From assembly GCF_014803405.1 (NCBI RefSeq), contig NZ_JACYFG010000032.1:124001-188000 (forward strand): DNA of 64,000 nucleotides. The letters run 5' to 3'. The notes below the pieces were generated by a model. It saw nothing but the letters and a program-made list of their open reading frames with translations, was not told the DNA's origin and did not search any database. This DNA comes from Pelagicoccus enzymogenes (GTDB lineage Bacteria > Verrucomicrobiota > Verrucomicrobiia > Opitutales > Opitutaceae). Both the position numbers and the translations under genes were made by a program. Position 1 is the stretch's first letter; every line of letters begins with the position of its first letter. This document shows positions 16,701-57,544 of this stretch, piece by piece.

Positions 16701-17481
16701 TTCGACCGGCGTCGTCGGAGAAGTTACCCATCGGTCCGGCGACTTCGGTGCTCGCTGTGTGTACGAGCAACTGCTTTAGATCGGTGGATTGCGTGTCATC
16801 GAGGAAGTCCTTTGTTACGACGCTGATCGACGAGGCGACATCTTTGAGCTTCGTGTTCAGTCGAGTGCCAGCGAGCGTGGAGGAGGCTCGATAGCCTTCG
16901 TTGCTCGAAGCCTCGACTGTAAAAGGCGAGAGTTCGAATACGTTCTCATCCTCGTTCGCATCGCTGTCTTGTCCGGATGCGGTGGCAAAGATGCCAGCAG
17001 CGGAAAGGGCGGCGAACGCTTTGCGCAAGAACGGCCGTTTCTGGTTTTGTTGACCTAAGGTCTCACTTGTTAATGGGGGCATATCAGAGTTCTGGTGTTT
17101 GTTAGTTCTAATGGTTGTAGTTTCTTTTCGACTACGATTAGCATTTTTACCAACTTGCCTGACAGTGATCGCATAGGTGCCGGAATTGGAGTCTGTATAC
17201 AGTTTCAATCCGGTATCCTTCAGCATCGTTTCGAAAGCCTCCTCGATGGTGAAATGGCCATGGACCGACGAGGTTACGACGTTTTTGACAACGTCGGGAC
17301 TGTACAGCATGTCGATTTCGCATTGCTCGGCGGCTTTCTTGAGGGTCTGAATTGCTTTTCCTGCAGGTACCGAAAAGGAGTGTTTACCGTTTTGATAGTC
17401 TGAGGAGTGCGTAGGTGTAGCGGCCACTAATCCAACCACCCCGAAAAGTATCCGGACAAAGAAAGGCATCAGGCCATTCAT
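13753..17481 (-). CDS. TonB-dependent receptor with N-terminal STN signalling domain
   Basis: About 1242 residues from the ATG at 17481 (a GTG at 17523 would add 14). The order is: signal peptide (1-27), an STN domain at about 32-108 (VPAGKAIQTLKKAAEQCEID to KLYTDSNSGTYAITV), a basic linker, then at 148-171 a second signal-peptide-like segment beginning KRPFLRKAFAAL. After that come the plug (ELSPFTVEASSNEGYRASST, LAGTRLNTKLKDVASSISVV) and a long beta-barrel ending in phenylalanine (TLRSTFEF). STN receptors pass a binding signal to a FecR-type anti-sigma factor, and the genes for FecR and the ECF sigma factor lie just upstream on the same strand. The ligand is probably an oligosaccharide from this locus (inference). 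The internal signal-like segment suggests fusion of an STN module onto a conventional receptor. Confidence 0.9.
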   Translation of the reverse strand: MNGLMPFFVRILFGVVGLVAATPTHSSDYQNGKHSFSVPAGKAIQTLKKAAEQCEIDMLYSPDVVKNVVTSSVHGHFTIEEAFETMLKDTGLKLYTDSNSGTYAITVRQVGKNANRSRKETTTIRTNKHQNSDMPPLTSETLGQQNQKRPFLRKAFAALSAAGIFATASGQDSDANEDENVFELSPFTVEASSNEGYRASSTLAGTRLNTKLKDVASSISVVTKDFLDDTQSTDLKQLLVHTASTEVAGPMGNFSDDAGRNNEREFTERPIEINATTRVRGLAGATITRDYFESLIPMDSYNTDSVTVNRGANSILFGVGSPAGIINTGLISPIFEDRDSVSLSYGSYGSLRSSLDVSRLINEKLAVRFAALYEDTKYQQKPAFERDERIFATLAYRPTEDLTFKLNVESGEIDANQPRQFAPVDSLTMWWDPLAHPEGLVKPVHDAIATPALSPYGAYFGPLGPIVGSPVVWSVAGSGEVDASRNPSNAEAFLIFRHPNFTPSDSSDRELRAFATLRGTGQNQRYYNNGQNEAIANQFANRAVTDESILDFRNNLLDGDNKGSSMDFDSISLTAEQLFLDKQAGIEFAFDSQSVDLASHSLFGGARSYNLQIDVNTVLPDGNPNPNFGRPMISWAGGDWDEATTESDTYRATGFFNLKATDKFEGLLGKIIGDHTVTALFEKREEKNESLGGLQYAWGDDYVEFNRKPDGGLTLGGIGNVGNRTFRSLGGIVYLGDSLKDAASPSNADLIERLPLLNVGNSRSMRTYSYNDDAWVTREFGVIQNPITNAGLNRLERTSKAIIFNSRFLDDHLVATYGWRDDEVKSFALDGVPRGADGAVLLDDPSFVASPSGDPYQDTTFSWGVVAHMPQSIVENLGPINRLSLHYAEAENRVASNRVRHDFFDRALSAPLGETKEYGVSVALFDDNISIRANVYETVQSLRSDSSLNGLTGIIGQEVRFINQIEEVIAVNPGNQADIELLRNYPDFPQVIKDGWNITTDTNGLLQFDAPDNLSVTSDGVSKGFELEMVGNLTSNWTISMNAAKQEVTRNNSAPAVTEYLYGEFNRAAVWEESAFGRFKFNPSNETTIEDQMDTYISSLQLAQLQDGSTSIDQVREWRFNVFTNYRFADDSSLKGWTVGGGARWQDDVAIGFPQIFDTELGEYRPDVTSPYFGPDQLKIDAFVRYKRKLFEDRVDWTLQLNINNALNEDDLVPVVANPDGSFPVYSIPAERTFTLRSTFEF

Positions 17482-17741
17482 CCGAGAAAATGGGGTGGAA
17501 GGGGGGGCAGGTTGGTGGTTCACGCGGTAGACTCTGATTTACCCGGAACTCACTAAACGAAATGTGAAATAAATCAATTTTTTGGGGCCGCGTATTCTCT
17601 TTTTATATACGTTTGCGCGGTGGTCGAAATTCGCTGCGTAAAATGCTCTAGATAGCTGGGCACACACAAGTTCACACGCTCCTAGATGGCGATTTCGGAG
17701 GTATGTTTTACTCGGGGACAGACCTGGAGTGGAGCGCGTGC
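17482..17741. promoter_or_regulatory. Leader of the TonB-receptor gene
   Basis: A 218 to 260-base gap between FecR and the receptor. It is AT-rich in the middle (17565-17610), with CCGCG and CGCGG arms flanking that stretch at about 17588-17618. Because fecI-fecR-type receptors are often driven from their own ECF promoter, this is the place to look for one, but I cannot point to the boxes. Confidence 0.35.
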
Positions 17742-32204: not shown

Positions 32205-33239
32205 ATGTCGGGAAGACGGGTAACGATTCGGGATATCGCGGAGCGGGCGGGCGTTTCAAAGTCAACGGTGGCTTATGCTCTCAAAGAGGACTCTCAATGC
32301 GCTGCGGCGACGCGAGAACGTATCCAGAGGATTGCGATGGAGATGGGGTATGTAGCGAATCCGCTCGTGTCAGCTCATTTGGCGAATGTAAGGCGTGCGG
32401 AATCGAAAGCGGGGTACCTCGCGACCCTGGCCTATTTGTCGGATCGGCCACTGAAGCAGATGTTGGCGCAAGGGTTTCCTCACATGGGCGCTTACGACGG
32501 GGCTCGAGAACGGGCGAACGAACTGGGGTATCATTTGGAGGTGTTTCACTACGAAAATCCGGATCTGTCGTGGGATCGATTAAAAGGGATCCTGCAGAGC
32601 CGGGGAATACATGGGGTCGTGATTGGTCCGCACCGAGGGTCGAAGGTTCAGCTGGATATGGAATGGGACTGCTTTTCCACGGTGATAATCGGCGATTCCA
32701 TCGCGTATCCAAGATTCCACAGTGTGGGCTTCGATCATCTTGGAAATATGGAGCTGCTCTTTTCTCGGTTGTTTAGGAAGAAGGGCCGGAGGATCGGTTT
32801 GGCCTTGTCTGGGTTTATCAATAGGCGAGTTCGCTTTCAGTTTCGGTCAGCTTTCGATTTCTTTCAGGAAGAGCTGGAGACGGACATGCGGGTCCCTGCA
32901 TTGATATCGGAACAATGGGAGCCTGCCGTTTTCCTGAAGTGGTACAGTGAATACAAGCCTGAGGTCATTGTTACGGTTTACGACGATGTGCGTAGGTGGC
33001 TAGATTCCATTGGAGTGAGAGTGCCGCAGGATGTGGAGATCGCAACGCCAGCGATCATGGCGGATTCGCTGGACTACTCGGGAATCCACCTGCCGCTCAA
33101 AACCCTTGGGAAATTGGCTGTGGACACGGTTGCCGCTCAGCTGTTTCGGAATGAAAAGGGAATTCCGGAGAGTCGTTGCGTTAGCTTGGTGGTGGGCGAA
33201 GTCCGGACCGGAAAGACGCTTCGGGAAGGCCTAGTTTAG
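32205..33239 (+). CDS. LacI-family transcriptional regulator 2
   Basis: 344 residues. The LacI helix-turn-helix covers about residues 6-53 (TIRDIAERAGVSKSTVAYAL then AAATRERIQRIAMEMGYV). It is followed by the effector domain (ILQSRGIHGVVIGPHRG, HSVGFDHLGNMELL, EVIVTVYDDVRRWL). The hinge after GYVANP is LVSAHLANVRR, as in the other two LacI proteins here. Divergent placement from GH78 C makes it the obvious regulator of the 19.5-32.1 kb rhamnosidase/sulfatase block, with an inducing sugar probably derived from rhamnose oligomers (inference). Its stop overlaps the stop region of the PL24-like gene by nine bases, tail to tail, leaving no room for a terminator between them. Confidence 0.92.
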   Translation: MSGRRVTIRDIAERAGVSKSTVAYALKEDSQCAAATRERIQRIAMEMGYVANPLVSAHLANVRRAESKAGYLATLAYLSDRPLKQMLAQGFPHMGAYDGARERANELGYHLEVFHYENPDLSWDRLKGILQSRGIHGVVIGPHRGSKVQLDMEWDCFSTVIIGDSIAYPRFHSVGFDHLGNMELLFSRLFRKKGRRIGLALSGFINRRVRFQFRSAFDFFQEELETDMRVPALISEQWEPAVFLKWYSEYKPEVIVTVYDDVRRWLDSIGVRVPQDVEIATPAIMADSLDYSGIHLPLKTLGKLAVDTVAAQLFRNEKGIPESRCVSLVVGEVRTGKTLREGLV

Positions 33240-34688
33240 GTCTAGATCGATGATCTGCAGGTAGGTGGTACGTGTGTCGCCGGAACCGGGTTCCTTGAGG
33301 TAGTAGTAGAGTTTTCCGTTGCTAATGTGGGGGATGCCTTTGTCGAAGATTCGGCCGGATGTGGGCTCGTAGACGGTTTGCCAATGGTTGGTGCCGCCTT
33401 CTGTACGTTGCACGAAGGGACGTCCGTCCTTGAGCGTGATCATGAGGATGTAGTTGCCGGCCGCGTACAACTCGACGCCGCCAGCGAAATCGGTGGTGAC
33501 AGTGAAGTCGGACTCGCCGCTCGCTCTGTAGGCGTGGTGGAATTTGGTGACATCGTTCTCGTTGTCCCTTACGCGGGATATGATGTGCTCGTCTCCGCGA
33601 TCGGTAACGTTGAAGTCGAAGTAGCCAACCATGTGGACCATATCCTTTTGGGTGGTCGCTACGTAGTCGCCCGGTTCGTAGACTTTGATGAAGCTTGGAT
33701 CCGCGAGCGGGAGCTCGAAGGGTTCGCCCTTGTGGTTTTTCCAATCGTCTTTGCCGTTTGGGTTGTCGGACGAGGCGTAGTACACTCCGTTTTGGTAGAT
33801 GTATCGATCTTGGCGGTCGTTGTTTCGACGCTGGAAGGCCACCCGGATTTTCCCGTCTGCGTATTTCATTCTTCCATACACCCCATAGGTGAAGTCGAGT
33901 CCGTGCTGGTTGGCATTGTCTACGTTGAAGTAGATCGGTTCGTTCCATTTGGATTCGCCGTCGTATTTGCAAATGAAGTACCGGCCGTTGTACGCGGAGC
34001 CCTTGCGCATGTACATGAATAGGTCGCCCTCGTCATTGAGGAAAAAGGTAGGGTAGGTGAGGCGGCCCCATACCTCAGCGTTTTCTACGCCGTCCATGGT
34101 GAGGTGCTTGTAGTCGCCATCTGGAGACTTCATGAAAAGGTCTAGATTAAAATCCTCGTCGGGAACTGTGGCAGCGTCGGGGATCGAGTAGCTGTAACGG
34201 AAGTAGTCTTGGTCGAAGGCGCCGTCATCCGTGAATCCCGGGCGGTAGGCGTGCATGTCGTAGAGCAGGTGGATGGTGCCGTTCTTGGGGCTGATGCCTA
34301 CAGCGATGGTGTTGTGGGTTTCGCCGATCCACCATTTGTTGACGTAGCCGGTATGGCGGTGGGGAAACTCGATTGTGACTTGCTTGCCCGTATCCGTGTC
34401 GAGGCGAGTAAGCATGACGTGACGGTCCTCTTTTCCACCGCGGTACCAAGTCAGGAAGACATATTGCTTGAAGGTTTTGATGCAGTCGCCGTGTGGAACG
34501 AGCGCGTTGCCGAAGAAGTAGTCGTAGGCTCCCTCGCGATTGGGTGCGTCGCGTCCGACCTTTTTCCCGTCAAAGTATAGCGACTGGTCGTTGAGGTGGA
34601 TTTCCGCTTCTAGGGTGACTTCGGCACTTAGGGTACAGGCCATCGCAATGAAGGCTGTCGCGAACGCTGCAAGCTTGATGGTGATCAT
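33231..34688 (-). CDS. Secreted PL24-like BNR-4 polysaccharide lyase
   Basis: 485 residues with a signal peptide (residues 1-22, TLSAE). This BNR-4 propeller differs from the PL25-like ones. Its opening is GDCIKTFKQYVFLTWYRGG followed by RHVMLTRLDTDTG, then ETHNTIAVGISP, GTIHLLYDMHAY and FRYSYS, a set that resembles, as I recall it, the PL24 ulvan lyase LOR_107. A later RRNNDRQDRYIYQNGVYYA strand and HMVGYFDFNVTDRGDEHIIS complete the blades. Expected reaction is beta-elimination next to glucuronic or iduronic acid. It lies 41 bases after a PL25-like lyase gene on the same strand and ends the 47.4-33.2 kb block. Having both families side by side suggests complementary cleavage of one polymer. 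Confidence 0.72.
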   Translation of the reverse strand: MITIKLAAFATAFIAMACTLSAEVTLEAEIHLNDQSLYFDGKKVGRDAPNREGAYDYFFGNALVPHGDCIKTFKQYVFLTWYRGGKEDRHVMLTRLDTDTGKQVTIEFPHRHTGYVNKWWIGETHNTIAVGISPKNGTIHLLYDMHAYRPGFTDDGAFDQDYFRYSYSIPDAATVPDEDFNLDLFMKSPDGDYKHLTMDGVENAEVWGRLTYPTFFLNDEGDLFMYMRKGSAYNGRYFICKYDGESKWNEPIYFNVDNANQHGLDFTYGVYGRMKYADGKIRVAFQRRNNDRQDRYIYQNGVYYASSDNPNGKDDWKNHKGEPFELPLADPSFIKVYEPGDYVATTQKDMVHMVGYFDFNVTDRGDEHIISRVRDNENDVTKFHHAYRASGESDFTVTTDFAGGVELYAAGNYILMITLKDGRPFVQRTEGGTNHWQTVYEPTSGRIFDKGIPHISNGKLYYYLKEPGSGDTRTTYLQIIDLDLN

Positions 34689-40086: not shown

Positions 40087-41541
40087 TTAGTCCTGTGTTC
40101 TTCTTCGGATCGGGCCCTCGTCTCCGACGAGGTACATGCGGCGGTAGGGGGTGCCGTCCGGTTTCTCTGCGACGATGATGCGAGCGTCGGGGTGGGCGTT
40201 GCGGATGAAGGCGCTGGCAGCGGAGCCGGGGCTATCCAGGTTGCTGAGCGAAGCCGGGCGATCTCCGTAGAGATTCTTGGATTCGGGTTCGAAGTAGTCT
40301 CCGAAGCGCAGGAGCTCTTTGCCGGGCGCGAAGCTGGCTCCGCCGTCTTGGCTTTCCCACCAGCGCACGATGGTGCGGTCGACCGAGGGATCGACGCCGC
40401 TCAGGAGAAAGCGTACTTGTTTGCCGGATACGAGGAAGTCTCCGCGGCCGATGGGGAGGCCGTTTTCGAAGTTTCCTGCCCAATTTTCACCGTCCCAGCG
40501 GAAGTAGCGGGCGTTTTTCGGGCCGCCGATTTGCCAGCCAATGTCTTCTCCGATGTAGGCGGCGATGTGAGGGATGCCTTCGGCGTCAACTTGGGTGGAA
40601 CCGTTGAAGGTCCACTTTTCACCGGTATCGACGGCGAGGGTTTTGACATCGGCTTCTTCCTTGGTGAGCGGGATGTTGAGCGGTTCGTCGTGGATGTTTT
40701 GCCAGACCTTCGTAGCGGTGTTGAAGGTCATGTAGTAGAGGTTCTTTCGCTCGGTGGAGTGGCCCCCTCGGTTGTTGCGAGGCGCGTCTTGGTCCCAGCA
40801 GTAGTGGTAGTCGAAACCTACTACGATTTCATCTTTGAGGCCTTTGGTGGCGAATGCGTACCAGCTATCCGAGCCGATGTCGTCAGCGCGCCGCTTGTGC
40901 TTGAGGAAGGGGACGGGTGCTTCGAAGGTACGGCCGTGGTCAGTAGATTTTTGATACACCCAGTCGCTGCGGTGAGCGCCGTGACGGTAGAACAGGTAAA
41001 GGTCACCGTTGTCCATCTTGACGGCTTGGTTGTAGGTGCCGAAGGGGGAAATGTTGTTGAGGTCTTCCCACTCGGTGATGTTGAGTGGTTTTTTGGATAC
41101 GGAATGGCGGTTTTCGCCGAGGGCGGAATTGCCGAAAGGGTTCTCGCCGTGTATCGCTTTATCTCCACCGTGGCCACCGTAGAAAATGTGGATGTAGCCG
41201 AGATCGTCGATGATCATGGTGGGCTTGCCGTGGCTGTCGATTTTTCCTTTAGGGTCTTTTCCAAGAGTGCTGGTGCCTGCTTTGAAGGGACCGAGCCATT
41301 CCTTTTTTTCGTGGTCGTACGCAGCGACGTAGGGGTCTTCGAGCAAGCCTTGGTAGAAAACATAGGTTATGCCGTCCTTGTGTTCGCCTGCCGGGTGTTG
41401 GACGATGGCGACGCCCTCGCCCCAGCCGTTGGTGGCGAAGAAGGGCGTGGTAGCGGTCTTGGGCGCTGGCTTCGAGCAAGCGCCCAGCAAGGCTCCGAAA
41501 GCGACGAGGAGGGAAACGACGATAGACTGTTTTGTTTTCAT
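40087..41541 (-). CDS. Lipoprotein PL25-like BNR-4 polysaccharide lyase
   Basis: 484 residues from the ATG at 41541. This start gives a standard lipoprotein signal (LVAFGALLGAC, Cys22), whereas an upstream in-frame start adds 36 improbable residues. The propeller has ITYVFYQGLLEDPYVAAYD, GKIDSHGKP with His104, IFYGGHGG with His124, FGTYNQAVKM with Tyr170 and FYRHGAHRSDW with Arg186. These have the same 20 and 16-residue spacings as the PL25-like proteins at 9063 and 34730. It is closest to the 9063 protein across the HGAHRS and C-terminal NAHPDAR and RRMYLVGD parts. It is expected to be a surface-anchored lyase. It lies 151 bases upstream of the beta-helix gene on the same strand and is preceded by a 474-base non-coding gap, so it probably has its own promoter. 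Confidence 0.8.
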   Translation of the reverse strand: MKTKQSIVVSLLVAFGALLGACSKPAPKTATTPFFATNGWGEGVAIVQHPAGEHKDGITYVFYQGLLEDPYVAAYDHEKKEWLGPFKAGTSTLGKDPKGKIDSHGKPTMIIDDLGYIHIFYGGHGGDKAIHGENPFGNSALGENRHSVSKKPLNITEWEDLNNISPFGTYNQAVKMDNGDLYLFYRHGAHRSDWVYQKSTDHGRTFEAPVPFLKHKRRADDIGSDSWYAFATKGLKDEIVVGFDYHYCWDQDAPRNNRGGHSTERKNLYYMTFNTATKVWQNIHDEPLNIPLTKEEADVKTLAVDTGEKWTFNGSTQVDAEGIPHIAAYIGEDIGWQIGGPKNARYFRWDGENWAGNFENGLPIGRGDFLVSGKQVRFLLSGVDPSVDRTIVRWWESQDGGASFAPGKELLRFGDYFEPESKNLYGDRPASLSNLDSPGSAASAFIRNAHPDARIIVAEKPDGTPYRRMYLVGDEGPIRRRTQD

Positions 41542-42015
41542 GGGGTTGCTTGCAGTGTTTTTCGTACCAGCGGACCGCAAAGGATTTTGTCTTGGGGATT
41601 TGGTGTTACCGGCATTCGTTGAAGGGGAAAGTTCTTGGCTTTGGGACACGAAGTGACGCCATCACCTCACGGGAGCCTTTGGGGCGTCGCAAACGTCGCT
41701 GCGGGAAAATTGAGTACTCGTCATGTTTTTGGGGTTGAGGGGGGTATAGGAGTCGAACCGAAGCGGCCTGAAATGGACAGGCTGAGATAATGAGGTATTA
41801 AGCAGAGAAGAGAATCACTCCCAAATTCATACTGTTCGATGAGCGAACCCTCTTTGAGCCTGGGTGTCGATGCGAGTTCTATTAATGCCCTTTGGGTGAG
41901 TCTTGGTGCCGTTTCACATCCTAGGCTTTTGAACGCTAAGCATATCAGTCAGAGCACCGCGCAACTACCACGTGATCGCGTAGTTGTTTGCGTCGAGGAG
42001 CCTCCGCATGCGATG
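41542..42015. other. Non-coding gap with a shared palindrome
   Basis: No open frame here has coding character. It presumably holds the promoter of the PL25-like gene at 40087-41541 and the 3' end of the VOC transcript. At 41967-41985 it contains TACCACGTGATCGCGTAGT, which matches the reverse complement of the palindrome at 54762-54781 at all but one position. A short stretch near 41748 resembles a tRNA T-arm but has no cloverleaf around it. Confidence 0.5.
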
Positions 42016-48866: not shown

Positions 48867-51800
48867 TTAGCGGTCGAAGAAAATTGTTGAAGTGTGGATT
48901 TGGACAGGACCGATAAGGCCTGCCGGTATGAGGGGAGCTCTTTTCTTGAAGAAGGGGTATGCGACAAAGGTCGAGCGCTCGCCGATCGGGGCGGGCTCGT
49001 TGGCGGTGTACCAATCTACCATCTTGTATCGATTGATGAAGGACAGCTGCGGGTCTTTGATCAACAGGGTTTGGTTGAGCTGGGGCTCTAGGTCGTAACC
49101 AGTGAGGTTTTGGAATTGTTCGTCGCCGATGAGGCGGTTGGCCCATTGGTTGACGACTTCGATGCGTAGTTTATTTTCACCTACGCGGGCGGATTCGGTG
49201 ATATCTATGGCGAAGGGAGGCGTCCAAAGGGCTCCGACTTGCTGGTCGTTCAAGTGCACGCGGGCGGCGACTTCGACGGTCCCGAGGTCCAAGGTGAGGT
49301 GGCGGTTTTTGGCGAAGTGACTTTCGTCTAGATGTATGGTCTTTTCGTAGATGGCGGTGCCGGAGTAGTGCTTGACGCCTTCGATGGAGTGATCGGTCCA
49401 GTCAGTGAGGGCTTCGAAGCTTAGAGTTTGCGGGCCAGCTTTCAGCTCGGGGAAGGTGACGGTCCAGGGGCCGTCGATGGGGATGTTTTCGAGGGGTCTG
49501 GGGTCTGGAGTCGCGCGTTGCTTTTTACCATCGTTGCGGAAGATGACGAAAATGGCACCTTGTGCGGCGGTGGGAACGGCGAGTTTGGTTTTCCCTTCGG
49601 CGTGAGTGACGTTTTGCGGGATGGTGGTTTCGCCGGTGACAGGGTCCCAGAGCTCTGGTAGCTTGCCGTCGACATTGAAGGTGCAGTCGAAGGTTTGGCT
49701 TTGGGCTTCGGGGTTATAGAAGAAGTAAATGTCTTCGGTTTCCGTCTTGCGGTGAGCGTAGTTGATCGATTCGCCGTTTTCAATCTTCAGGTCGATGGGG
49801 AGCTTGTAGTCGGCATAGATCTTTTCCCAGGAGCTTTCGGTGCTGGTCGTCGGGCGGCTCCAAATTTGGGATACAAGGGTTTCGAATGTTTGGATGTCTT
49901 CATCCGCAAGCGCATAGTTGCCCAGGCGTCTGGGCGGAGCGCCGAGGATGAGAGCTCCCTGTTCAGAAAGTTCGTTGAGACGTTTCAGGGTTGTGAGTGT
50001 GATTTCCCTGTTGTTCCGCAGGACGAGGGCGTGGTAGCGGGTGCCCTCGGGGAGGACGAGTTTTCCGTCTTTCACGGATATCCGGTTTATCAATACGTCG
50101 GCATTGACGCCATCGTAGTTGATGTGGTTGGGGAGATCGTCCAGGCCGGATCGGTTGGGGATGCCGTTAGGGGCTCCGTCGCCAACAAAGACGAGTAGAT
50201 CGGAAACGGGCACGCCTTGGCGGAGGAGGTGTTGTCCGCGGGCGATGTATTGGAACCAGCTTTTGCCGGCGGTTTCCCACCAGGTTTGGTTGCGGTTGAT
50301 TTGGGCGCCGAAGCCGTTCATGGTCATGCCGGGCTTGACCTTGGTGTTGGCTTGGTGGGCAAAGGTGTGGAAGACGAACTTGTTGACGCCGAGGGCCCAG
50401 GCACGGTCGCCGACCGATTTCCATTTTCCGGGGTGGGCTTCGAAGTTGGTTTGCGGCCCGGAGGTGAAGGCTTCAGCGGAGATGATGTTGTGGCCGTAGA
50501 TGTGTCCGGCGGAGATGGCGCTATCGAGCAAGGTTCGGCTGGAGGCGTGGAATTCGCCCATGGGAATGTCGGCCTTGCGGGCGGCGTCGAGTTGATTGAA
50601 GGGGCCGTTGCCGTAGGGTTCAAGGATGCTTTTGAGCCCCTCCCGCTCGCAAAGAGCGTCGAAGGTGTCGAAGTAGTTTTCGCACATGAGATCGTTGTTG
50701 AAACGACGAATGTCCCAGAGGACACGGTCGGTGGCGTTGGCGCTTTCGACGTAGCGGCCGGCGTAGAGCGGCAGAAAGTTTGTGATATCGTAGCCGTGGC
50801 GTCTTTCGAACTCGTCCTCATAGCCTTTGGTCCAATTTTGCCCGCCGACTTCGTAGCTATCGATTTCGACGTACTGCAGGGCTCCGGGCGCGACTTCCTT
50901 GACGGCGTTGATGACGTTGCGCACGTAGCCTTCCCAGAAAACTTCGAAGGATTCGCGACTGAACTTGTCGACTTCCCAGCCGGTGCCAGCGATGGATGCC
51001 GGATCGTTGATGGCGGCGGTGGTGGTGTATCCAAAACGCATGACGGTCCATCTGCCCTTGGGCAGTTTCGTTTTGAGGCGGCCCTTGGCGTCTATTTGCG
51101 AAGTGAGATCGACAATGCTATCCTTGGCGATGATCATGCTAGGATCAACCGGATCGAGTACGGGGAATCCCGGGCTGTTGTGGCGCATGATGTTGAGGCG
51201 GCCATTGAGCTCCGTGAATTTTTGGGTGGCGCTGAGTTCGATCTCGGCAAGGTCCATCGCCTTCTCGGTGACGAAGCGAAAGTAGCGAGCAGTGAGCGGC
51301 GGGAAGCTGTGATCCATGCTGTACTCGTACTTGCCGTGGCGGAGGAGTTTGAGCTCGTGGGCGGTGGTGAACGATTTCCCATCGTTGGAGGTTTGCAGGA
51401 AGTACTTCCTGCGGGGACGTTGCTTCTCTGTATTCAGATAAAAGCTACGAGCGGTGAAGGGTTTTCCGAAGTCCCATTGGATCCAGGCGGTGCCCTCGTC
51501 GGAGACGGAGAGCTCGGTGCGTTCGTCGAGTTTGCCGTTGGTCGCGATGTGAGGGTGGAAGCCGGGGGCGGAACTGGTGACGACTGGGTGGAATTGGGTT
51601 TGTTCGATTTCGCTATCGAGGGAGGGGTAGGCGATGACGGCGATGTCGCGATAGAAGTCGCCCCGCATGGTGGGGCTGGGGAGGCGAAGGTCGATGGTGC
51701 CGCCGTCGATAAAGAGCTCGCGGTACACGACGCGCTTCATGGAGTGCTCGACGGGAACCCAGGGGCCGCCGCTGGAGGTCCAGCCGTCGCAGTTGTGGAT

Positions 51801-52118
51801 GCCGAAGCTGAGGCCGAGGCGTTGGCATTCGGCGGCGGTGAAGGCGGTCAGCTCGATGTGCTCGGGCGAATTGAAGGTGACCGGGCCGTTGGGAACCCCG
51901 ATGGTAACGTTAAAGAGGATGATGCCGCCGATGCCCGCGTCGGCCATGGCCTCGAGGTCTTCGGTGATGCCCTCACGGCTAATGTTGCCCGCCATGAAGT
52001 GATACCAAGTGTGTGGCTTGGCGGAGTGCGGCGGGGATTGAAAGGACTTGAGAAGAGGCTCCGCGTATAGAGCGGGGATAAAGGTGGAGATTAGGAGTAG
52101 GATGAGCAGGCTTCGCAT
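48867..52118 (-). CDS. Secreted GH106 alpha-L-rhamnosidase B
   Basis: 1083 residues from the ATG at 52118, which starts a clean signal peptide (MRSLLILLLISTFIPALYA). Upstream in-frame sequence is repeat DNA. Family hallmarks: KPHTWYHFMAGNISREGITED, IGGIILFNVTIGVPNGPV, FGIHNCDGWTSSGGPWVPVE, then QYVEIDSYEVGGQNW and NIISAEAFTSG in the catalytic part, a discoidin-like insert around 230-320, and the C-terminal sandwich with VVNQWANRLIGDE. It parallels GH106 A (22420-25662) in length and motif order but reads NEPAPIGERS near its end, so it is a diverged paralogue and not a recent copy. Downstream of GH78 D on the same strand, it converges with LacI regulator 3. Confidence 0.93.
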   Translation of the reverse strand: MRSLLILLLISTFIPALYAEPLLKSFQSPPHSAKPHTWYHFMAGNISREGITEDLEAMADAGIGGIILFNVTIGVPNGPVTFNSPEHIELTAFTAAECQRLGLSFGIHNCDGWTSSGGPWVPVEHSMKRVVYRELFIDGGTIDLRLPSPTMRGDFYRDIAVIAYPSLDSEIEQTQFHPVVTSSAPGFHPHIATNGKLDERTELSVSDEGTAWIQWDFGKPFTARSFYLNTEKQRPRRKYFLQTSNDGKSFTTAHELKLLRHGKYEYSMDHSFPPLTARYFRFVTEKAMDLAEIELSATQKFTELNGRLNIMRHNSPGFPVLDPVDPSMIIAKDSIVDLTSQIDAKGRLKTKLPKGRWTVMRFGYTTTAAINDPASIAGTGWEVDKFSRESFEVFWEGYVRNVINAVKEVAPGALQYVEIDSYEVGGQNWTKGYEDEFERRHGYDITNFLPLYAGRYVESANATDRVLWDIRRFNNDLMCENYFDTFDALCEREGLKSILEPYGNGPFNQLDAARKADIPMGEFHASSRTLLDSAISAGHIYGHNIISAEAFTSGPQTNFEAHPGKWKSVGDRAWALGVNKFVFHTFAHQANTKVKPGMTMNGFGAQINRNQTWWETAGKSWFQYIARGQHLLRQGVPVSDLLVFVGDGAPNGIPNRSGLDDLPNHINYDGVNADVLINRISVKDGKLVLPEGTRYHALVLRNNREITLTTLKRLNELSEQGALILGAPPRRLGNYALADEDIQTFETLVSQIWSRPTTSTESSWEKIYADYKLPIDLKIENGESINYAHRKTETEDIYFFYNPEAQSQTFDCTFNVDGKLPELWDPVTGETTIPQNVTHAEGKTKLAVPTAAQGAIFVIFRNDGKKQRATPDPRPLENIPIDGPWTVTFPELKAGPQTLSFEALTDWTDHSIEGVKHYSGTAIYEKTIHLDESHFAKNRHLTLDLGTVEVAARVHLNDQQVGALWTPPFAIDITESARVGENKLRIEVVNQWANRLIGDEQFQNLTGYDLEPQLNQTLLIKDPQLSFINRYKMVDWYTANEPAPIGERSTFVAYPFFKKRAPLIPAGLIGPVQIHTSTIFFDR

Positions 52119-52307
52119 TTTTAACCGCGGATATTTGATTGAGAAAGTTCGCTGGATCCGTCCGTCGCCCTTCGGGCTTCCTTCTCCGCCAAGGCTTCGG
52201 CAGGACTGGGATGGAGGACACATGGCGATCCTGGATGGGAAGCCTCTGATGCGGCTTGGGCGGGATTGGGTTGGGCGGGACGGGCAGTAAAGCCCGCCCC
52301 TACGGGG
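52119..52307. repeat. Intergenic repeat shared with 29650-29767
   Basis: The gap between GH78 D and GH106 B begins TTTTTAACCGCGGAT and has GCGATCCTGGATGGGAA in the middle. Its end reads GCGGGACGGGCAGTAAAG and CCCGCCCCTACGGGG, running without change into the last codons of GH78 D, exactly as at 29740-29780. The hairpin GGGACGGGC / GCCCGCCCC is conserved. The 5' part is longer here by about 70 bases. Confidence 0.65.
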
Positions 52308-54695
52308 TTATTTGGCGATGATTTTGTAGGTGCCGGGGGGGACTTGGAAGTGGTGGTATTTTTGATCTTCGCCTTGGTGGGTGATCTTGGTTTTGGATTT
52401 TTTGGCTTTGCCATCTTTCCAAATGACTTGGCCGTTGGCGGTGATGGTGGTGGGAGTGACGTTTGCTTTCGGGATGCCGATGAGGGCGGTGGTGCCTTCC
52501 GGGGAGATGAGGTCGAGAGTGTAGGTTTTGTTGACGGCCTCGATCTCGACGGTGATGTCGCCTTGTACGCTAGGGACGATCTGCTTGAGGTGGGTTAGAT
52601 GGGCAAGGTTGGGGCGGACGCTATAGGTCTTCCAAGCGACTTCTTCGGGGACGATGCCGGCGATGTAGTGGGAGAGCACATAGTTGGGGGCGTTCCAAGC
52701 GTGGTTGTAGGTGCCGCGGGGGCGGGTGTCGTTGGCGTAGCGTTCGTAGAGGGTGGTGAGATCGGGGTCGCGCACTTGGTCTTCGTGGCGGGTTCTCATG
52801 CGTTCGAGGCCGGCTTCGTAGTTGCCGGTGAGCATGATGGCTTCGAGCACGATCCACTCCATGTGGGGGCTGGCATTGTATTCACTGAGCAATACGTTTT
52901 CGAGCAGGGCGTCGTATTGGTCGGGGCTAGCGAGGCCGGTAAGGACGGTGAGGGCGCTGACGCGTTCTTCCTTAGTTTTGCCCTCGGAGCCGTAGTATCC
53001 GTCACGCCAGTACACCTTGGCGTAGTTTTCTTGGATGCTTTTGATGCGTTCTTGGTAGAAGGGGATGTTGTCTTCGATGCCGAGTTCGCGGGCAATTTTG
53101 ACGGCGGAGTTGAGGGCCATGTAGTACCAAGCGATGTGAGTGGGCTGGTGGTCGGGGTTGAGGCCCCAGTCGACCCAGCGGGCGTAGCCACGGCGCTCTT
53201 CGGGGAGGCCGTTTTCCTCCATCTTCCAGAGCTTGAGGTAGCGGTCGATGAAGGGGTAGGCGTAGGCGAGGGTTTCGCGGTCGCCGGTGTGGAAGTAGTA
53301 GCGCCAGATGCCTTGCTCGATGTATTGCAGGCTTTGGGCACAGAGTTCGCTGCTTTTGCCGCGGTAGTCGCCGAATCCGGGGGCGAGGCCTTGGATAATG
53401 TCGCCGGATTGGTAGGCGAAGGTGTTTTCGATGCCTTTTTTGAGGAGGAGGCGGGAGGGCTCGTTGAGGGTGTAGAAGACGGGGCCGGTTTGGTCTGCGA
53501 CGTCGCCGATCCAAAGCCCACGTTCGCGGTCGGGACAGTCCATGAAGCTGTCGCGGGCGCAGATTTGCAGGGTGTTGGCAGCCATCCACCAGAGGCGGGT
53601 GAAGAAGGGGTCGTTGGACTCGAAGGTGCCGGTGATCTCGTCATAGGCGGTCCAGCGGTATTTGAGTTCTTGGACTTCGACGCCGGGTGGGATCTGGTAT
53701 TCGACGAAGTGTCCGTTCATCCATGAGTAAGTCTCGAAAGATTGGATACCGTCGCGGGTGGTGTATTGGGCGTCGATGAGGTTGAAGGGGTTCTCCATGC
53801 CGATTTCGATGGTTTTGCCGGCGGGGCTGTCGACGGTCATGAAGGGCGTGATCTGCTGGTTGTGGGGAAGGCGGCCGCTGAGGGTGACGGTTTCCTCGGT
53901 GTCGTTGGTGTAGGGGAGCGTTATGAATTCGTCGCCGATTTTGAGGGAGAGGTAATCGACGTGTCCGTAGTCGGTCCACTGGGGGATGGGACGTTTGACG
54001 AGGTCGCCGTAGGGGTCGGAGTAGGCGGGGCCCTTTGGGGTGGCGGCTTGCCAGGCGGAGTCGTTGTAGCCGGGGAGGTACCAGGCGGAGTCGGTCCAGT
54101 CGCCGAGAGCGAGGCGGGCGTCGTACTTGACGTCCATGGCGTTGGGGCGGTTGTTGGAGCGGTGAAGGCCCTCGCTGGCGGGGTCGTAGGAGGGGTGGAC
54201 GGTGAGCTTCCAGCTTTCGTCGGAGCGGAGCTTGGTTTTGCCGAGGTCGGCGGAAAAGAGCAGTCCGCCTTGGCCGCTGGATTCGTGGGTTTTGGCGGTT
54301 TTGCCCCAGTACCAGACAAGGATGGCGACGGTGTTTTCGCCGGGCTGGAGGTGGTTGCGGAGATTCACTTCGTCGAAGTAGCCGTCGCCGGGGGCGGGGC
54401 CGCGGGCGAGTCCGCCTTCGAAGAGGGCCAACTCGCCGTTTACCCAGAGCCAGTACTTGGTGTCGGTGGCGATGTGGGCGATCACTTGCTCGGGAACGGC
54501 ATCGAGATCGAAGGTTTTGCGGAAGGCGACCCAAGTGTTGGAAGGGCCGTCTTCGGCTTGCCAGATCCATTGGGCGTCAGTCCAGTCGGCGTTTGCCCGA
54601 GCAGCTTGAGTACTGGCGAAAAGAAGAGCGATGACGGCAAAAACTATTTTCGCAGCAAATTGGGAAGCAAGGGGGGAACGGGGATTTCTTTCCAT
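52308..54695 (-). CDS. Secreted GH78-family alpha-L-rhamnosidase D
   Basis: 795 residues, signal peptide about 13-35 after a basic N-terminus. ADWTDAQWIWQAEDGPSNTW and ATDTKYWLWVNGELALFEGG mark the N-terminal sandwich. SFMDCPDRERGLWIGDVADQ opens the catalytic (alpha/alpha)6 domain, and GTYNHAWNAPNYVLSHYIAG follows near its end. The C-terminal sandwich has LISPEGTTALIGIPKANV, closely matching GH78 B (LLSPEETTALVGIPKKHF). It belongs to the compact trio with 27307 and 29768. It diverges from the sensor kinase gene across a 129-base spacer and is followed by GH106 B, so the two-component system probably controls this rhamnosidase pair (inference). Confidence 0.88.
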   Translation of the reverse strand: MERNPRSPLASQFAAKIVFAVIALLFASTQAARANADWTDAQWIWQAEDGPSNTWVAFRKTFDLDAVPEQVIAHIATDTKYWLWVNGELALFEGGLARGPAPGDGYFDEVNLRNHLQPGENTVAILVWYWGKTAKTHESSGQGGLLFSADLGKTKLRSDESWKLTVHPSYDPASEGLHRSNNRPNAMDVKYDARLALGDWTDSAWYLPGYNDSAWQAATPKGPAYSDPYGDLVKRPIPQWTDYGHVDYLSLKIGDEFITLPYTNDTEETVTLSGRLPHNQQITPFMTVDSPAGKTIEIGMENPFNLIDAQYTTRDGIQSFETYSWMNGHFVEYQIPPGVEVQELKYRWTAYDEITGTFESNDPFFTRLWWMAANTLQICARDSFMDCPDRERGLWIGDVADQTGPVFYTLNEPSRLLLKKGIENTFAYQSGDIIQGLAPGFGDYRGKSSELCAQSLQYIEQGIWRYYFHTGDRETLAYAYPFIDRYLKLWKMEENGLPEERRGYARWVDWGLNPDHQPTHIAWYYMALNSAVKIARELGIEDNIPFYQERIKSIQENYAKVYWRDGYYGSEGKTKEERVSALTVLTGLASPDQYDALLENVLLSEYNASPHMEWIVLEAIMLTGNYEAGLERMRTRHEDQVRDPDLTTLYERYANDTRPRGTYNHAWNAPNYVLSHYIAGIVPEEVAWKTYSVRPNLAHLTHLKQIVPSVQGDITVEIEAVNKTYTLDLISPEGTTALIGIPKANVTPTTITANGQVIWKDGKAKKSKTKITHQGEDQKYHHFQVPPGTYKIIAK

Positions 54696-54761: not shown

Positions 54762-54781
54762 TACTACGCGATCGCGTGGTA
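54762..54781. promoter_or_regulatory. Long palindrome in the GH78 D / sensor kinase spacer
   Basis: TACTACGCGATCGCGTGGTA is a 20-base palindrome with one mismatched pair and a perfect 12-base core ACGCGATCGCGT. It lies between divergent genes. Nearly the same sequence, inverted, occurs at 41967-41985. It could be a regulator site or a small repeated extragenic palindrome. The flanks GCTCTTTA and TAAATGGAGC extend the symmetry. Confidence 0.45.
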
Positions 54782-54824: not shown

Positions 54825-56894
54825 GTGAGGGCAGCTCTAATCCTCAGTTTATTGCCTTTGGCTTACTTACCCCGTCGCTTGCGATGGATTGGAGAAGGGA
54901 CAGATCTACGATCCGGCCTCGGTGGGTTGACCCTGCAGGGTGGCTTGCTCGGAGAGCGATCCCTACCTTCTCGAATGCTCCTCTACTTGCGGTGGGGATC
55001 TTTATTTCTTTTCGGACTGAGTTCTCTCTCTCTTCTGGAAATGCGTGGGAAGAGCCTGAACGCTCTCGACCGGGAAATTTCCGCGATTGAGGCTCAGCTG
55101 AAGCTCTTGCCGGTGCGGGAACCCGGCGAGATGGGCGGAACGGCTGGCATTTACGTGGAACGGCAGGCTGACTCAAGCTCGTCGATTACAGTAGATTTGG
55201 GAGAGGTTTTTCCGATCGATCTTATCGCCCTGCTTCCCACGCGAATGCAGAATGTGGAGCGTGAGATGGAGCAGGTCGGTTTCCCTTCTCGTTTCGAGAT
55301 TTTGGGTTCTGTCAGTGAAGATTTCAGGGAGCCGGTCGTGCTGTATTCGGGGAGAGAAAACGATTTTCCAGACCCAAGCGGGTATCCAGCATTGTTTGAC
55401 GGGGAAGGTGCCGAGGCACGCTATGTGCGAATCGAGGTGCATGATTTCCCTCAAGTGCGAATGCGTCGCGCAGCCTCTTTTGCGGAGCTTTTCGTATTTT
55501 CCAATGGTCAAAATGTGGCGAGTGGCAGGCCGGTAGAAGCTAGTGATTCGATTTCTTGGGAGGGATTATTCGATGCGTCTTTCTTGGTCGATGGCCAAAC
55601 GACGTTCGGCCAGCCCATTTTAAGTGGTGAAAAAATGCCACGGAGTCGCGGTTGGCACGCTGCAGTTCGGATGCGCGCCGATAAGAAGGAATTCGTGGAA
55701 TTACATTTCAATACCGCACAAAAAATTCACGGTATTCACTTGTATCCAGTATATCATTCCCTCTGGCCAAACGGCACAGACTACGGCTTTCCAAGCCATT
55801 TTCGCCTTGAGGTACGCGAGCCGGACAAGGGCTGGCGCACGGTGGAGGATTGGTCGGAGCGTGTGTTCCCGCCACCGGGGAACAGTCCAGTCTATTTTTC
55901 GATTGAAAGTCTAGAGGTAGACGCGGTGCGCTTGCTAGCCCTTCGGTTGCCCGAGAGTATTCCGTCTCGCTTCATTTTCGCCTTAGCGGAGATAGAAGTT
56001 TTTTCTGATGGGAATAACATCTCTCGCGAAGCAAAGGTGGTATCTTCCAGTTTGCATACTTTTAACCTAGAGGAGTGGAACGAAGAAGCTTTGATCGACG
56101 GCTATGCTACGCGAGGCAAGATATTGCCGCTCCAGGAGTGGCTGAAGGGACTTGCCCTCAGAGGACAACTCGAAGAGCGCTTGGCTTTATTATTCGCTCG
56201 GCGCTCGGAGAAGCAGAAAGAATTTACCCAGCTCCTTAGAATCGTGGTCACTGTATTAAGTATGACACTACTGTTCGTAGCGGGACTCCTAATTCGCAAC
56301 AGGTCGATACGTCAGAAACAAATGCTGGACTTGAGGAACCAAATAGCAGCTGACCTTCATGACGACGTGGGAAGCAATCTTGCTAGCATCACAATTTTGG
56401 CAGCAGGCGCTCGCGAGCAATGTTCGACGGGTACACCTCAAGCCATTGCCTTAGAGCGCTTGGTGGACATTGCAAAAGAAACTTCTGCATCCATGAGAGA
56501 CATTGTCTGGATGCTTCATCCGGTCCGGAAATCTAACATAAGCCTTACGGCGCGGCTGAAGGACATTGCGAGTCGCTTGCTTGCCGAGACTGAGTTTACC
56601 TTCGAGGGATCAAAGGAAGTCGGTGCGGATGCGCTCAGCATGGAAAAATTGCATCATTTTCTGCTCTTTTATAAGGAAACGCTGCACAACCTTGCTAGAC
56701 ATGGGAACGCGACCCATGTGAGGATTTCACTCGGTGTATTAGATAAGAATATGCATTTGCGGATATCGGATGACGGCAATCGCCCCGAAGCGGGAAAACT
56801 TCCCGAAGGATTGAAGCTACGAGCGGAGAAATTGTCTGCAGCCTTGTCTTACAGATCTGTTGATGCGTGGAACGAACTGACCTTGATTGTCTGA
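54825..56894 (+). CDS. Membrane sensor histidine kinase with discoidin-like sensor region
   Basis: 689 residues from a GTG start. An ATG at 54975 (residue 51) is a possible alternative and would place the first membrane helix (MLLYLRWGSLFLFGLSSLSL) at the N-terminus. Residues about 110-420 are extracytoplasmic and look like two discoidin/F5-8C-type sandwiches (SSITVDLGEVFPIDLIALLP to RYVRIEVHDF, and KEFVELHFNTAQKIHGIHL to VRLLALRLPES). A second helix follows at about 468-488 (VVTVLSMTLLFVAGLLI). HisKA_3 dimerisation with phospho-acceptor His512 (AADLHDDVGSNLASI) comes next, then a HATPase domain with KETLHNLARHGNATHV and RISDDGN. The last glycine box is divergent (PEGLKLRAEKL). This is a NarX/LiaS-type kinase. 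It overlaps the response-regulator start by one base. Confidence 0.9.
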   Translation: MRAALILSLLPLAYLPRRLRWIGEGTDLRSGLGGLTLQGGLLGERSLPSRMLLYLRWGSLFLFGLSSLSLLEMRGKSLNALDREISAIEAQLKLLPVREPGEMGGTAGIYVERQADSSSSITVDLGEVFPIDLIALLPTRMQNVEREMEQVGFPSRFEILGSVSEDFREPVVLYSGRENDFPDPSGYPALFDGEGAEARYVRIEVHDFPQVRMRRAASFAELFVFSNGQNVASGRPVEASDSISWEGLFDASFLVDGQTTFGQPILSGEKMPRSRGWHAAVRMRADKKEFVELHFNTAQKIHGIHLYPVYHSLWPNGTDYGFPSHFRLEVREPDKGWRTVEDWSERVFPPPGNSPVYFSIESLEVDAVRLLALRLPESIPSRFIFALAEIEVFSDGNNISREAKVVSSSLHTFNLEEWNEEALIDGYATRGKILPLQEWLKGLALRGQLEERLALLFARRSEKQKEFTQLLRIVVTVLSMTLLFVAGLLIRNRSIRQKQMLDLRNQIAADLHDDVGSNLASITILAAGAREQCSTGTPQAIALERLVDIAKETSASMRDIVWMLHPVRKSNISLTARLKDIASRLLAETEFTFEGSKEVGADALSMEKLHHFLLFYKETLHNLARHGNATHVRISLGVLDKNMHLRISDDGNRPEAGKLPEGLKLRAEKLSAALSYRSVDAWNELTLIV

Positions 56895-57544
56895 TGAGTA
56901 CTGAAAAATTATCCGTTTGGTTGATTGAAGATCATGCGAACTACCGCGATACGGTTGCCATGGCTTTACGGGCTCGAGCGGAGATCGCGTCGTTGCTGGA
57001 CTTTAGCGAGGCAGAGAGCGCGTTGAAACGCTTGAAGTCCGTTCCTTCAGCTCGACCTGATGTGATACTCATCGATCTGGGACTTCCTGGTCTTTCCGGA
57101 TTGCAAGCGATTCCGAAGCTGAAAGATCTGCTGCCCACCGTTAACATCGTAGTGCTAACGGTGTTCGACGATAAACCGAAGGTTTTTGAAGCGATAGCGT
57201 CAGGAGCTTCCGGATACTTACTCAAGTCTTCTACCCCCGGCGAGATCGTTAATGCAGTCGTGCAGGTGCATCAGGGAGGCTCGCCGCTGACACCACAGGT
57301 AGCTCGTTACGTGTTGTCCGCTTTCTCCGAGGTGCGAATACAGGCTTCTGCGACAAAGCTTACTCAGAGAGAGCAGGAGATTCTGTCTTACTTAGCAGAT
57401 GGTTTAATTAAGAAGCAAGTTGCTCAGAAGCTGGACATCAGTGCCCACACGGTGGATTATTACGTGCGAAAGATATACGAAAAACTACAAGTTAACACCT
57501 TGTCGGGTGCAATTTCGAAAGCGGTTCGGGAGGGGCTCGTCTAG
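56894..57544 (+). CDS. NarL/FixJ-family response regulator
   Basis: 216 residues from the ATG at 56894, which overlaps the kinase TGA as ATGA, a standard coupling. The receiver domain covers about 5-125: WLIEDHANYR, phospho-acceptor Asp61 in VILIDLGLPG, the Thr switch in IVVLTVFDD, and the Lys in GYLLKSSTPGEI. The C-terminal LuxR-type helix-turn-helix is at about 150-210 (LTQREQEILSYLADGLIKKQ, SAHTVDYYVRKIYEKL). It should be phosphorylated by the kinase encoded just upstream and act as a transcription activator, most likely at the adjacent GH78 D/GH106 B promoter. It converges with the beta-helix gene, 24 bases apart, with a small CAGTT-GAAA-AACTG hairpin between. Confidence 0.95.
   Translation: MSTEKLSVWLIEDHANYRDTVAMALRARAEIASLLDFSEAESALKRLKSVPSARPDVILIDLGLPGLSGLQAIPKLKDLLPTVNIVVLTVFDDKPKVFEAIASGASGYLLKSSTPGEIVNAVVQVHQGGSPLTPQVARYVLSAFSEVRIQASATKLTQREQEILSYLADGLIKKQVAQKLDISAHTVDYYVRKIYEKLQVNTLSGAISKAVREGLV

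Follow-up and report, generated by a model that had tools for sequence, protein, structure and literature searches.

A two-component system of Pelagicoccus enzymogenes combines a sensor kinase, in which a pair of extracytoplasmic F5/8C (CBM32-like) domains is joined to a DesK-type HisKA_3 core (Pfam, AlphaFold2), with a LuxR-type regulator, and lies beside rhamnosidase genes in a locus that also encodes ulvan lyases. An 18-bp palindrome recurs before the same sensor gene in two distant relatives, and we regard this pair as probably a dedicated, autoregulated switch for ulvan, a polysaccharide of green seaweeds. The window analysed here is a 64,000-nucleotide stretch of contig NZ_JACYFG010000032.1, and all coordinates refer to it.

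The kinase and the regulator

Both open frames, kinase and regulator, are present at 54825–57544, as the original prediction had them. The sensor histidine kinase gene (54825–56894, plus strand) is open from a GTG at 54825, and alignment would place its start at ATG 54975, the position at which both orthologous kinases begin. Because of this agreement, the kinase may be 639 rather than 689 amino acids long. The spacing of the palindrome speaks against the ATG: its distance to GTG 54825 is 44 bp, close to the orthologous spacings of 38 and 46 bp, whereas ATG 54975 is 194 bp away. The ATGA overlap that had been described at the junction of the two genes was not found; the sequence reads TGATG, the A of the kinase stop codon TGA serving as the A of the regulator's ATG at 56894.

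Of the proposed HisKA_3/HATPase core, the first half was borne out by Pfam, which places the HisKA_3 dimerisation and phospho-acceptor domain (PF07730) at residues 504–567 (56334–56525, plus strand) with 38.6 bits against a cut-off of 24; the phospho-acceptor histidine is invariant in the family alignments. The HATPase domain (56634–56891, plus strand), in contrast, gave Pfam matches below the cut-off and is tentatively assigned from the alignment and from its fold, which matches those of DesK and VraS in the structure search. Its N box and first G box are kept; the later glycine motifs, including the second glycine box, are altered, likewise in both orthologues. A transmembrane segment (56235–56300, plus strand) is predicted by sequence reading and falls within a long helix of the model. 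The architecture is not due to chance, since many full-length relatives share it and PF00754 is matched by 52 of 53 aligned sensors.

The regulator gene (56894–57544, plus strand), directly downstream of the kinase, is of the predicted LuxR/NarL type, with a receiver (Response_reg, PF00072; 56915–57259) and a GerE domain (PF00196; 57356–57520) that score 69.8 and 58.2 bits, respectively, both above the Pfam cut-offs. Its helix-turn-helix is 75–82% identical among the three orthologous systems. According to a simple gene caller, a regulator lies immediately 3' of the kinase in 24/29 order-level cases and for 54/74 kinases of the wider set.

The sensor ectodomain

In the sensor, F5_F8_type_C (PF00754) is matched in two stretches with 33.6 bits (cut-off 28.2), the best being residues 239–374, and a NedA-like F5/8C match at residues 110–203 is sub-threshold. 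When the sensor was modelled alone, AlphaFold2 returned a pLDDT of 94.0 and a pTM of 0.91, and residues 28–153 and 195–319 of this model match CBM32/F5-8C structures with Z values of about 9–10.8 over about 100–115 residues (VIA-align, in which the sensor was searched by itself because kinase cores fill the list obtained with the full-length protein). The fold predicted for this region is thus the discoidin fold that had been proposed, and no differing fold was obtained. Domain 1 (55134–55511, plus strand) is below the Pfam cut-off and, being weak by sequence, owes its assignment to structure prediction (AlphaFold2, VIA-align). Domain 2 (55506–56009, plus strand) is identified by PF00754, AlphaFold2 and VIA-align and carries a clade-specific aromatic/histidine loop (Y310/H311/W314) that might bind carbohydrate. 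It is followed by a conserved strap that repeats the N-terminal piece of the F5/8C fold and by the start of a stalk helix (56010–56168, plus strand), both delimited from invariant residues and the model; the strap may complete domain 1. The tandem as a whole matches known structures at a low TM (about 0.2), and therefore the mutual orientation of its two domains differs from that in known CBM32 structures.

The locus and its orthologues

As predicted, the kinase gene diverges from a pair of rhamnosidase genes, confirmed by Pfam: a GH78-type gene (52308–54695, minus strand; PF17389) and, downstream on the same strand, a GH106 gene (48867–52223; PF17132, 578 bits). The window further encodes a PL25 ulvan lyase (40087–41649, minus strand; PDB 5uam, E 1.1e-152) with a likely start at ATG 41541 and a lipobox LLGAC, a PL24 ulvan lyase (33231–34688, minus strand; PDB 7czh and 6byp) and two more PL25-related genes. 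Altogether it holds five GH78-type, two GH106 and four sulfatase genes, three LacI-type genes and an ECF/FecR/TonB set; a TonB-dependent receptor is encoded at 13753–17523, and no SusD family was detected among the 34 window genes scanned. This gene content points to ulvan, which the original prediction did not name, as the predicted substrate of the locus.

With the best three candidates per genome scored and the own genome set aside, orthologues of the pair were found in one of 387 genomes of the phylum, Pontiellaceae B12227 (G272; same contig as locus L083), and in one of 372 genomes of the order, an Opitutae MAG (G573; same contig as locus L084). A search of 29 genomes from the family of G272 yielded no more. 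Their kinases are 49–50% and their regulators 72–78% identical to those of the window, and the clade of the three has a support of 0.999 in the kinase tree (from which L133, a copy of L054, was excluded). Both orthologues sit among GH78, GH106 and sulfatase genes. The gene that diverges from the kinase in L083 is similar to the PL40 ulvan lyase Uly1040 (E 6e-116), and two further PL40 relatives (29–30% identity) occur elsewhere in the G272 genome. In L084, a gene for a PEP-CTERM protein lies opposite the kinase across the divergent promoter; no PL24 or PL25 relative was detected within the 48 kb examined around this locus and no PL40 relative in the whole G573 genome. Ulvan lyases were thus detected in the window (PL25 and PL24) and in Pontiellaceae (PL40), two loci out of three. 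Two other genes (L083:1567-4953 and L084:1-3420) had strong phmmer matches to PL40 lyases and were rejected as such: the similarity is confined to the Laminin_G and C-terminal modules and does not extend to the lyase part, and neither gene retrieves an ulvan lyase in PDB.

The G573 locus, with its pair and its rhamnosidase/sulfatase cluster and no ulvan lyase detected, speaks for the possibility that the pair regulates the locus while its sensor binds another ligand shared by such loci (for instance a sulfated rhamnoside, or rhamnose itself) or acts through a partner protein. Rhamnosidases are also the most constant neighbours across the three loci. We nevertheless judge this reading unlikely, given that in two genomes out of three an ulvan lyase gene lies at the palindrome, the two genes belonging to unrelated families, and that carbohydrate binding is the typical role of CBM32-type folds in enzymes.

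A conserved palindrome as candidate operator

The 18-bp palindrome ACTACGYGATCRCGTAGT is common to all three kinase promoters, in which the surrounding DNA is unconserved. In the window, it occurs as ACTACGCGATCGCGTGGT (54763–54780), a candidate operator between the GH78 and kinase genes. A pattern search retrieved a second site, ACCACGTGATCGCGTAGT (41967–41984), upstream of the PL25 gene; this site had been left out when the pattern was derived. The P. enzymogenes genome thus has two sites, one in the kinase/GH78-GH106 intergenic region and one upstream of PL25, and G272 and G573 have one each, before the kinase. These are also the only hits in the three genomes when up to two mismatches are allowed (2, 1 and 1, all in these loci), with one hit in G001 and none in G004; the reversed control pattern is found at two mismatches once each in G000, G272 and G573. 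At up to one mismatch, 0.015 sites would be expected in 6.2 Mb. The three promoters have an 11-bp exact word in common (7 bp after masking); shuffles reach at most 9 bp (3/3000). Exact matches to the degenerate form occur in 3/372 order genomes, the third being within a gyrase-like coding frame, so that intergenic exact sites are found in these genomes only where the kinase/regulator pair occurs.

In a symmetry test, the window, for which the stretch was placed manually around the known site, gave p 0.016; the values for L083 and L084 were 0.066 and 0.098. Across the family, 7/95 members had a strong palindrome (p 0.05, mononucleotide shuffles) in the 150 bp preceding the kinase, near the 5 expected, with 5/28 in the order-level set, and hence no family-wide operator rule is detectable. 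The case for the candidate operator rests on conservation across three promoters, not on symmetry alone.

Could the palindrome instead be the site of a different regulator in the locus, such as one of the three LacI-type proteins encoded in the window? LacI-type operators, too, are palindromic, similar in length and symmetric at the centre. We consider this improbable: the site accompanies the kinase promoter in each of the three genomes, its intergenic exact copies in the 372 order genomes occur only alongside the pair, and no LacI gene adjoins the kinase among the flanking genes compared in L083 and L084. Recognition by the LuxR-type regulator is the reading that we prefer. The two window copies, one beside GH78 and one before PL25, thereby lend indirect support to the original proposal that the regulator acts on adjacent genes. 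From the site at 41967 it is 317 bp to the GTG of the PL25 gene and 425 bp to the likely ATG, which makes control of PL25 less sure than autoregulation. Elsewhere in the window, no gene has a site at up to three mismatches; since the window also contains the LacI-type genes and the ECF/FecR/TonB set, the pair cannot be the sole regulator of the locus.

The sensor family in Verrucomicrobiota

The window pair represents one branch of a family of discoidin-sensor kinases with 31 copies in 9/57 relatives and up to 12 copies in one genome. At the order level, a sulfatase gene is present in 18/29 family loci versus 4/20 control stretches (p 0.004), where the loci average 17 kb and the controls 15 kb, two loci overlap (L065/L080), and the controls comprise 16 random positions and 4 that were replaced by hand after landing on kinase loci. 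Among immediate neighbours classified by Pfam, with the window and its orthologues counted, sulfatases account for 7/55 versus 2/60 in controls and TonB plug domains for 8/55 versus 3/60. In the wider set, 13/78 loci have a sulfatase gene and 93/113 neighbours, scanned with large or duplicate ones excluded, give a mixed list; these 78 loci have no matched control and, accordingly, we claim no enzyme link beyond the order. Genomes with at least about 33 sulfatases make up 8/9 of those with the family and 6/48 of those without it (p 1.5e-5, with relatedness ignored). The order-level alignment (A1) comprised 28/31 kinases, excluding L057 (a near-copy of L058) and L062 and L070 (missed by the gene caller); in the wider set, the caller recovered a kinase in 72/80 loci (74 kinases), of which 52 were aligned with the window sequence (A2).

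The association with sulfatases also argues against the idea that the pair senses the cell surface, the envelope or a protein partner and merely hitch-hikes in the ulvan locus, with the palindrome acting in autoregulation only. F5/8C domains can bind proteins and lipids, the kinase core is similar to DesK/VraS/LiaS types, among which are envelope sensors, and in G272 and G573 the palindrome occurs only before the kinase. Set against these points, the second palindrome upstream of PL25 and the rhamnosidase clusters beside all three orthologues leave this idea, in our estimate, very improbable.

Proposed mechanism and its meaning

Computation shows the architecture, the predicted fold, the linkage of the orthologues to rhamnosidase and sulfatase genes, the occurrence of ulvan lyases at two loci out of three and the conserved, near-unique palindrome. 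In the proposed ulvan switch, the kinase would reside in the inner membrane with its two CBM32-type domains outside, where their probable, directly bound ligand would be a fragment of ulvan, a sulfated oligosaccharide of rhamnose and uronic acid. The conserved strap and the stalk helix would relay the signal to the HisKA_3 core, and this would phosphorylate the LuxR-type regulator; a dimer of the latter would then bind ACTACGYGATCRCGTAGT and presumably activate its own operon, the divergent GH78-GH106 operon and the PL25 ulvan lyase gene. The prediction is concrete in that it names two proteins, one ligand, one DNA site and three target promoters.

Verrucomicrobiota are reported to play an important part in the degradation of sulfated methyl-pentose polysaccharides (PMC8857213). 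How they sense these polysaccharides is little described: our literature search, in which subscription journals were thinly covered, retrieved no study of a discoidin-type polysaccharide sensor kinase and no ulvan-responsive two-component system. What is new here is the predicted target set of the pair, defined by a site conserved in two distant relatives. More tentatively, and with slightly less than even confidence, we suggest that Verrucomicrobiota possess their own class of polysaccharide sensors, tandem CBM32-type membrane kinases that bind polysaccharides or their oligomers directly and occur in up to 12 copies per genome, one per degradation locus, the window member being ulvan-specific and its operator code moving between distant lineages with the locus. 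Should each sensor prove to match its locus throughout the family, the kinases could serve as labels for the substrates of unassigned loci.

Comparison with known systems

The pair has the kinase core fold and regulator architecture of the HisKA_3 / NarL-LuxR systems DesK-DesR, VraS-VraR, NarX-NarL and UhpB-UhpA, with DesK and VraS as the best structure matches. NCBIfam models gave weak matches of the kinase to UhpB, NarX and MctS and of the regulator to MctR and NarL, and none of the kinases scanned, nor the regulator, reached an NCBIfam cut-off. We know of no DesK-, VraS-, NarX- or UhpB-type kinase that senses with tandem F5/8C domains. In Pontiella agarivorans, PF07730/PF02518 kinases and regulators were noted near glycoside hydrolase and sulfatase genes, and the accessible part of that paper names no sensor type or DNA site; the word 'discoidin' is absent from its text (PMC10880615).

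Like the hybrid two-component systems of Bacteroidota (Y_Y_Y / beta-propeller), the pair would work with an outer glycan sensor encoded beside its presumed target degradation genes. Those hybrids unite kinase, receiver and AraC-type helix-turn-helix in one polypeptide, whereas the window has separate genes, a LuxR-type GerE helix-turn-helix and a CBM32-like tandem sensor, and the window kinase has no Y_Y_Y or Reg_prop Pfam match up to E 1; the contrast with Y_Y_Y systems drawn in the original prediction therefore holds. Each sensor domain has the fold of the CBM32 / F5-8C modules of GH84C, ZmpB and AlyQ and of chitosan-binding modules. Those modules are enzyme appendages, whereas in the window the fold forms the input domain of a kinase. 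Clostridia use carbohydrate-sensing anti-sigma factors with CBM-type ectodomains as polysaccharide sensors; these resemble the window kinase in their extracellular CBM-type sensor and act via sigma factors, whereas the window pair would act via a phosphorelay.

Sensor kinase and its regulator

Both reading frames put forward in the original prediction, for a sensor kinase and a LuxR-type response regulator, are present in the window. The kinase frame opens with a GTG at 54825 on the forward strand; an ATG at 54975, the position at which both of its closest relatives start, would give a protein of 639 residues. The regulator starts on the same strand with an ATG at 56894 and the junction is TGATG, with one base common to the kinase stop and the regulator start, instead of the ATGA overlap that had been described. 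Pfam searches assigned F5_F8_type_C and HisKA_3 domains and a sub-threshold HATPase to the kinase, and Response_reg and GerE to the regulator. The ATP lid (in the last ∼ 90 residues of the kinase, 54975–56894) is without the usual later glycine motifs, an alteration found in both orthologues. Third-position GC is 0.54 in the kinase and regulator genes (54825–57544), lower than in the neighbouring GH106 (0.74) and GH78 (0.79) genes (48867–54695), a gap possibly due to different histories or expression levels; in the LacI-type gene at 47758 it is 0.55.

The AlphaFold2 model of the 639-residue kinase (53 sequences) had a mean pLDDT of 90.1, and the sensor modelled alone (374 residues) had a pLDDT of 94.0 and a pTM of 0.91. 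The expected pair of F5/8C-type domains was borne out, as the sensor model matches CBM32/F5-8C structures at residues 28–153 and 195–319, with per-domain Z of ∼ 9 to 10.8 over ∼ 100–115 residues to CBM32 and other F5/8C structures. Structural matches of the kinase core include DesK and VraS. Neuropilin b1b2 and the ZmpB CBM32 pair match the whole tandem with good E-values, yet with TM-scores of ∼ 0.2 and rmsd of at least 15 Å, and the C domains of coagulation factors align to the sensor at 5–6 Å. Taken together, these matches indicate that the domains are ordinary and that their arrangement has no close match. A PDB search with the sensor profile found a streptococcal fucose-type lectin, a CBM32 and neuropilins (best E 7e-5), covering domain 2.

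Domain 1 lacks the N-terminal piece (N-x-A ... L-x-D-G) typical of F5/8C domains. In the alignments the same piece recurs, strongly conserved, after domain 2 and directly ahead of the stalk helix, and this strap may act as the coupling element. The window kinase and its two orthologues have 16 invariant polar or aromatic residues in the sensor, each being found in < 10% of the other 50 sensors; among them Y307, Y310, H311 and W314, grouped in a single loop of domain 2, are candidate ligand contacts.

Distribution of the kinase family

Kinases with a discoidin sensor form a true, expanded family. We found 31 full-length members in nine of 57 genomes (P. enzymogenes and its relatives), including 12 in G001, seven in G004 and three in P. 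enzymogenes; G001, of the same genus, is a candidate for pairing sensors with substrates. At E 1e-70, matches were present in 24 of the 240 genomes sampled from the phylum; three of these cover the kinase core alone. Of 536 related stretches in a species-level genome collection, the 80 best are for the most part labelled as Verrucomicrobiota, with some from Planctomycetota and Lentisphaerales and one from an Acidobacteriia MAG. NCBIfam models gave no match above cut-off. With a simple gene caller, the gene directly 3' of the kinase encodes a regulator for 24 of 29 kinases at order level and 54 of 74 in the wider set; at L060:8966–11694 the usual order is reversed, the regulator preceding the kinase. 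No clear linkage to enzymes was apparent among the wider family members. Close to the kinases, L085:1788–4805 and L113:12507–15521 encode proteins of ∼ 1000 residues with similarity to sensor domain 1 of the kinase profile (108–113 bits), perhaps partners sharing the kinase's ligand.

Orthologous loci and the likely substrate

Besides P. enzymogenes itself, matches at E 1e-75 (best three candidates scored per genome) were found only in Pontiellaceae bacterium B12227 (locus L083) among 387 genomes of the phylum, and only in an Opitutae MAG (locus L084) among 372 genomes of the order; the other 28 genomes of the B12227 family have no orthologue. Both kinases are 49–50% identical to that of the window, the regulators being 77–78% (L083) and 72% (L084) identical. 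In the tree the three form a clade with a support of 0.999 and a long stem. L083 and L084 are more similar to each other than either is to the window, although the MAG belongs to the window's order and B12227 only to the same phylum, which suggests, on sequence comparison, that the pair has moved between lineages by transfer.

L083 and L084 include rhamnosidase superclusters that contain relatives of the window genes: GH78 genes at 52308 (64% identity), 29768 (50–53%) and 19491 (41%), and GH106 22420 and sulfatase 25852 (each 42–44%). Sulfatase 36601 has its relative (66%) only in L188. Among the 387 phylum genomes, GH78 52308 has relatives with > 60% identity in B12227 only, and with 39–47% in seven others.

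The window encodes five GH78-type and two GH106 rhamnosidases, four sulfatases and several lyases, along with a TonB receptor accompanied by FecR and ECF sigma genes. The lyases include a PL25 ulvan lyase (40087–41649, reverse strand; match to structure 5uam, E 1.1e-152) and a gene matching PL24 ulvan lyases (33231–34688, reverse strand), and two further genes (9063 and 34730) are PL25-related. Ulvan is most likely the substrate of this locus, which seems to extend past the window; a PL25-related gene lies ∼ 3.4 kb beyond its right edge (L082:3389–4870, contig C31). The gene that diverges from the L083 kinase matches Uly1040, described as a PL40 ulvan lyase (PMC12915356), over 777 residues. 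No PL24 or PL25 relative was found in the 48 kb examined around L084, nor a PL40 relative in that genome. Ulvan is therefore supported for two of the three loci, with lyases from unrelated families. B12227 has two further PL40-related proteins (L204 on C110 and L205 on C162; 29–30% identity), distant from the kinase. Two Laminin_G proteins considered as PL40 lyases were rejected, as they have only accessory modules in common with PL40.

A candidate operator

All three kinase promoters share an 18-bp palindrome, ACTACGYGATCRCGTAGT. Their longest common word is 11 bp; none of 3000 dinucleotide shuffles exceeded 9, and masking the palindrome shortens the common word to 7 bp. The candidate operator lies at 54763–54780 in the window (one mismatch), at 9900–9917 in L083 and at 9874–9891 in L084 (no mismatches in either), and an independent second window site (41967–41984, one mismatch) occupies the gap upstream of the PL25 gene. 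The distance to the kinase start is 38 bp in L083, 46 bp in L084 and, in the window, 44 bp from the GTG or 194 bp from the ATG, a spacing that agrees with a start at GTG 54825; the divergent gene lies 67 bp away in the window, 343 bp in L083 (PL40) and 115 bp in L084.

At up to two mismatches, P. enzymogenes has just its two sites, B12227, the MAG and G001 have one each and G004 has none; a reversed control pattern gave one match each in P. enzymogenes, the MAG and B12227. Base composition predicts 0.015 sites at up to one mismatch per 6.2 Mb. The exact degenerate form occurs in three of the 372 order genomes and the control pattern in none of the entries listed; the third match (G031) is within a gyrase/topoisomerase-like coding frame. 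Exact sites were found in both genomes with the pair versus one of 370 without it (p 4e-5, uncorrected for relatedness). The regulator HTH is 75–82% identical among the three orthologues, as expected for a retained DNA site.

A lyase would cut ulvan into fragments that would enter the periplasm, where the tandem sensor may bind them; the stalk and HisKA_3 core would pass the signal to the regulator, and its binding to the palindrome would raise expression of the kinase operon, the GH78–GH106 operon and the PL25 lyase. From ligand binding onward, this scheme is inferred. Three orthologues are available, one of them with no ulvan lyase detected.

Comparison with known systems

A literature search, one query of which was possibly defeated by spelling, found no discoidin-sensor kinase for polysaccharides. 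In the accessible text of a Pontiella paper, kinases and regulators are described near GH and sulfatase genes with the sensor type unnamed (PMC10880615), and in that of a paper on Verrucomicrobiota in diatom blooms the terms 'histidine kinase' and 'two-component' do not occur (PMC8857213). The component parts are of known kinds; as far as the literature searches reach, the novelty lies in their combination, in the family and in the predicted ulvan regulon.
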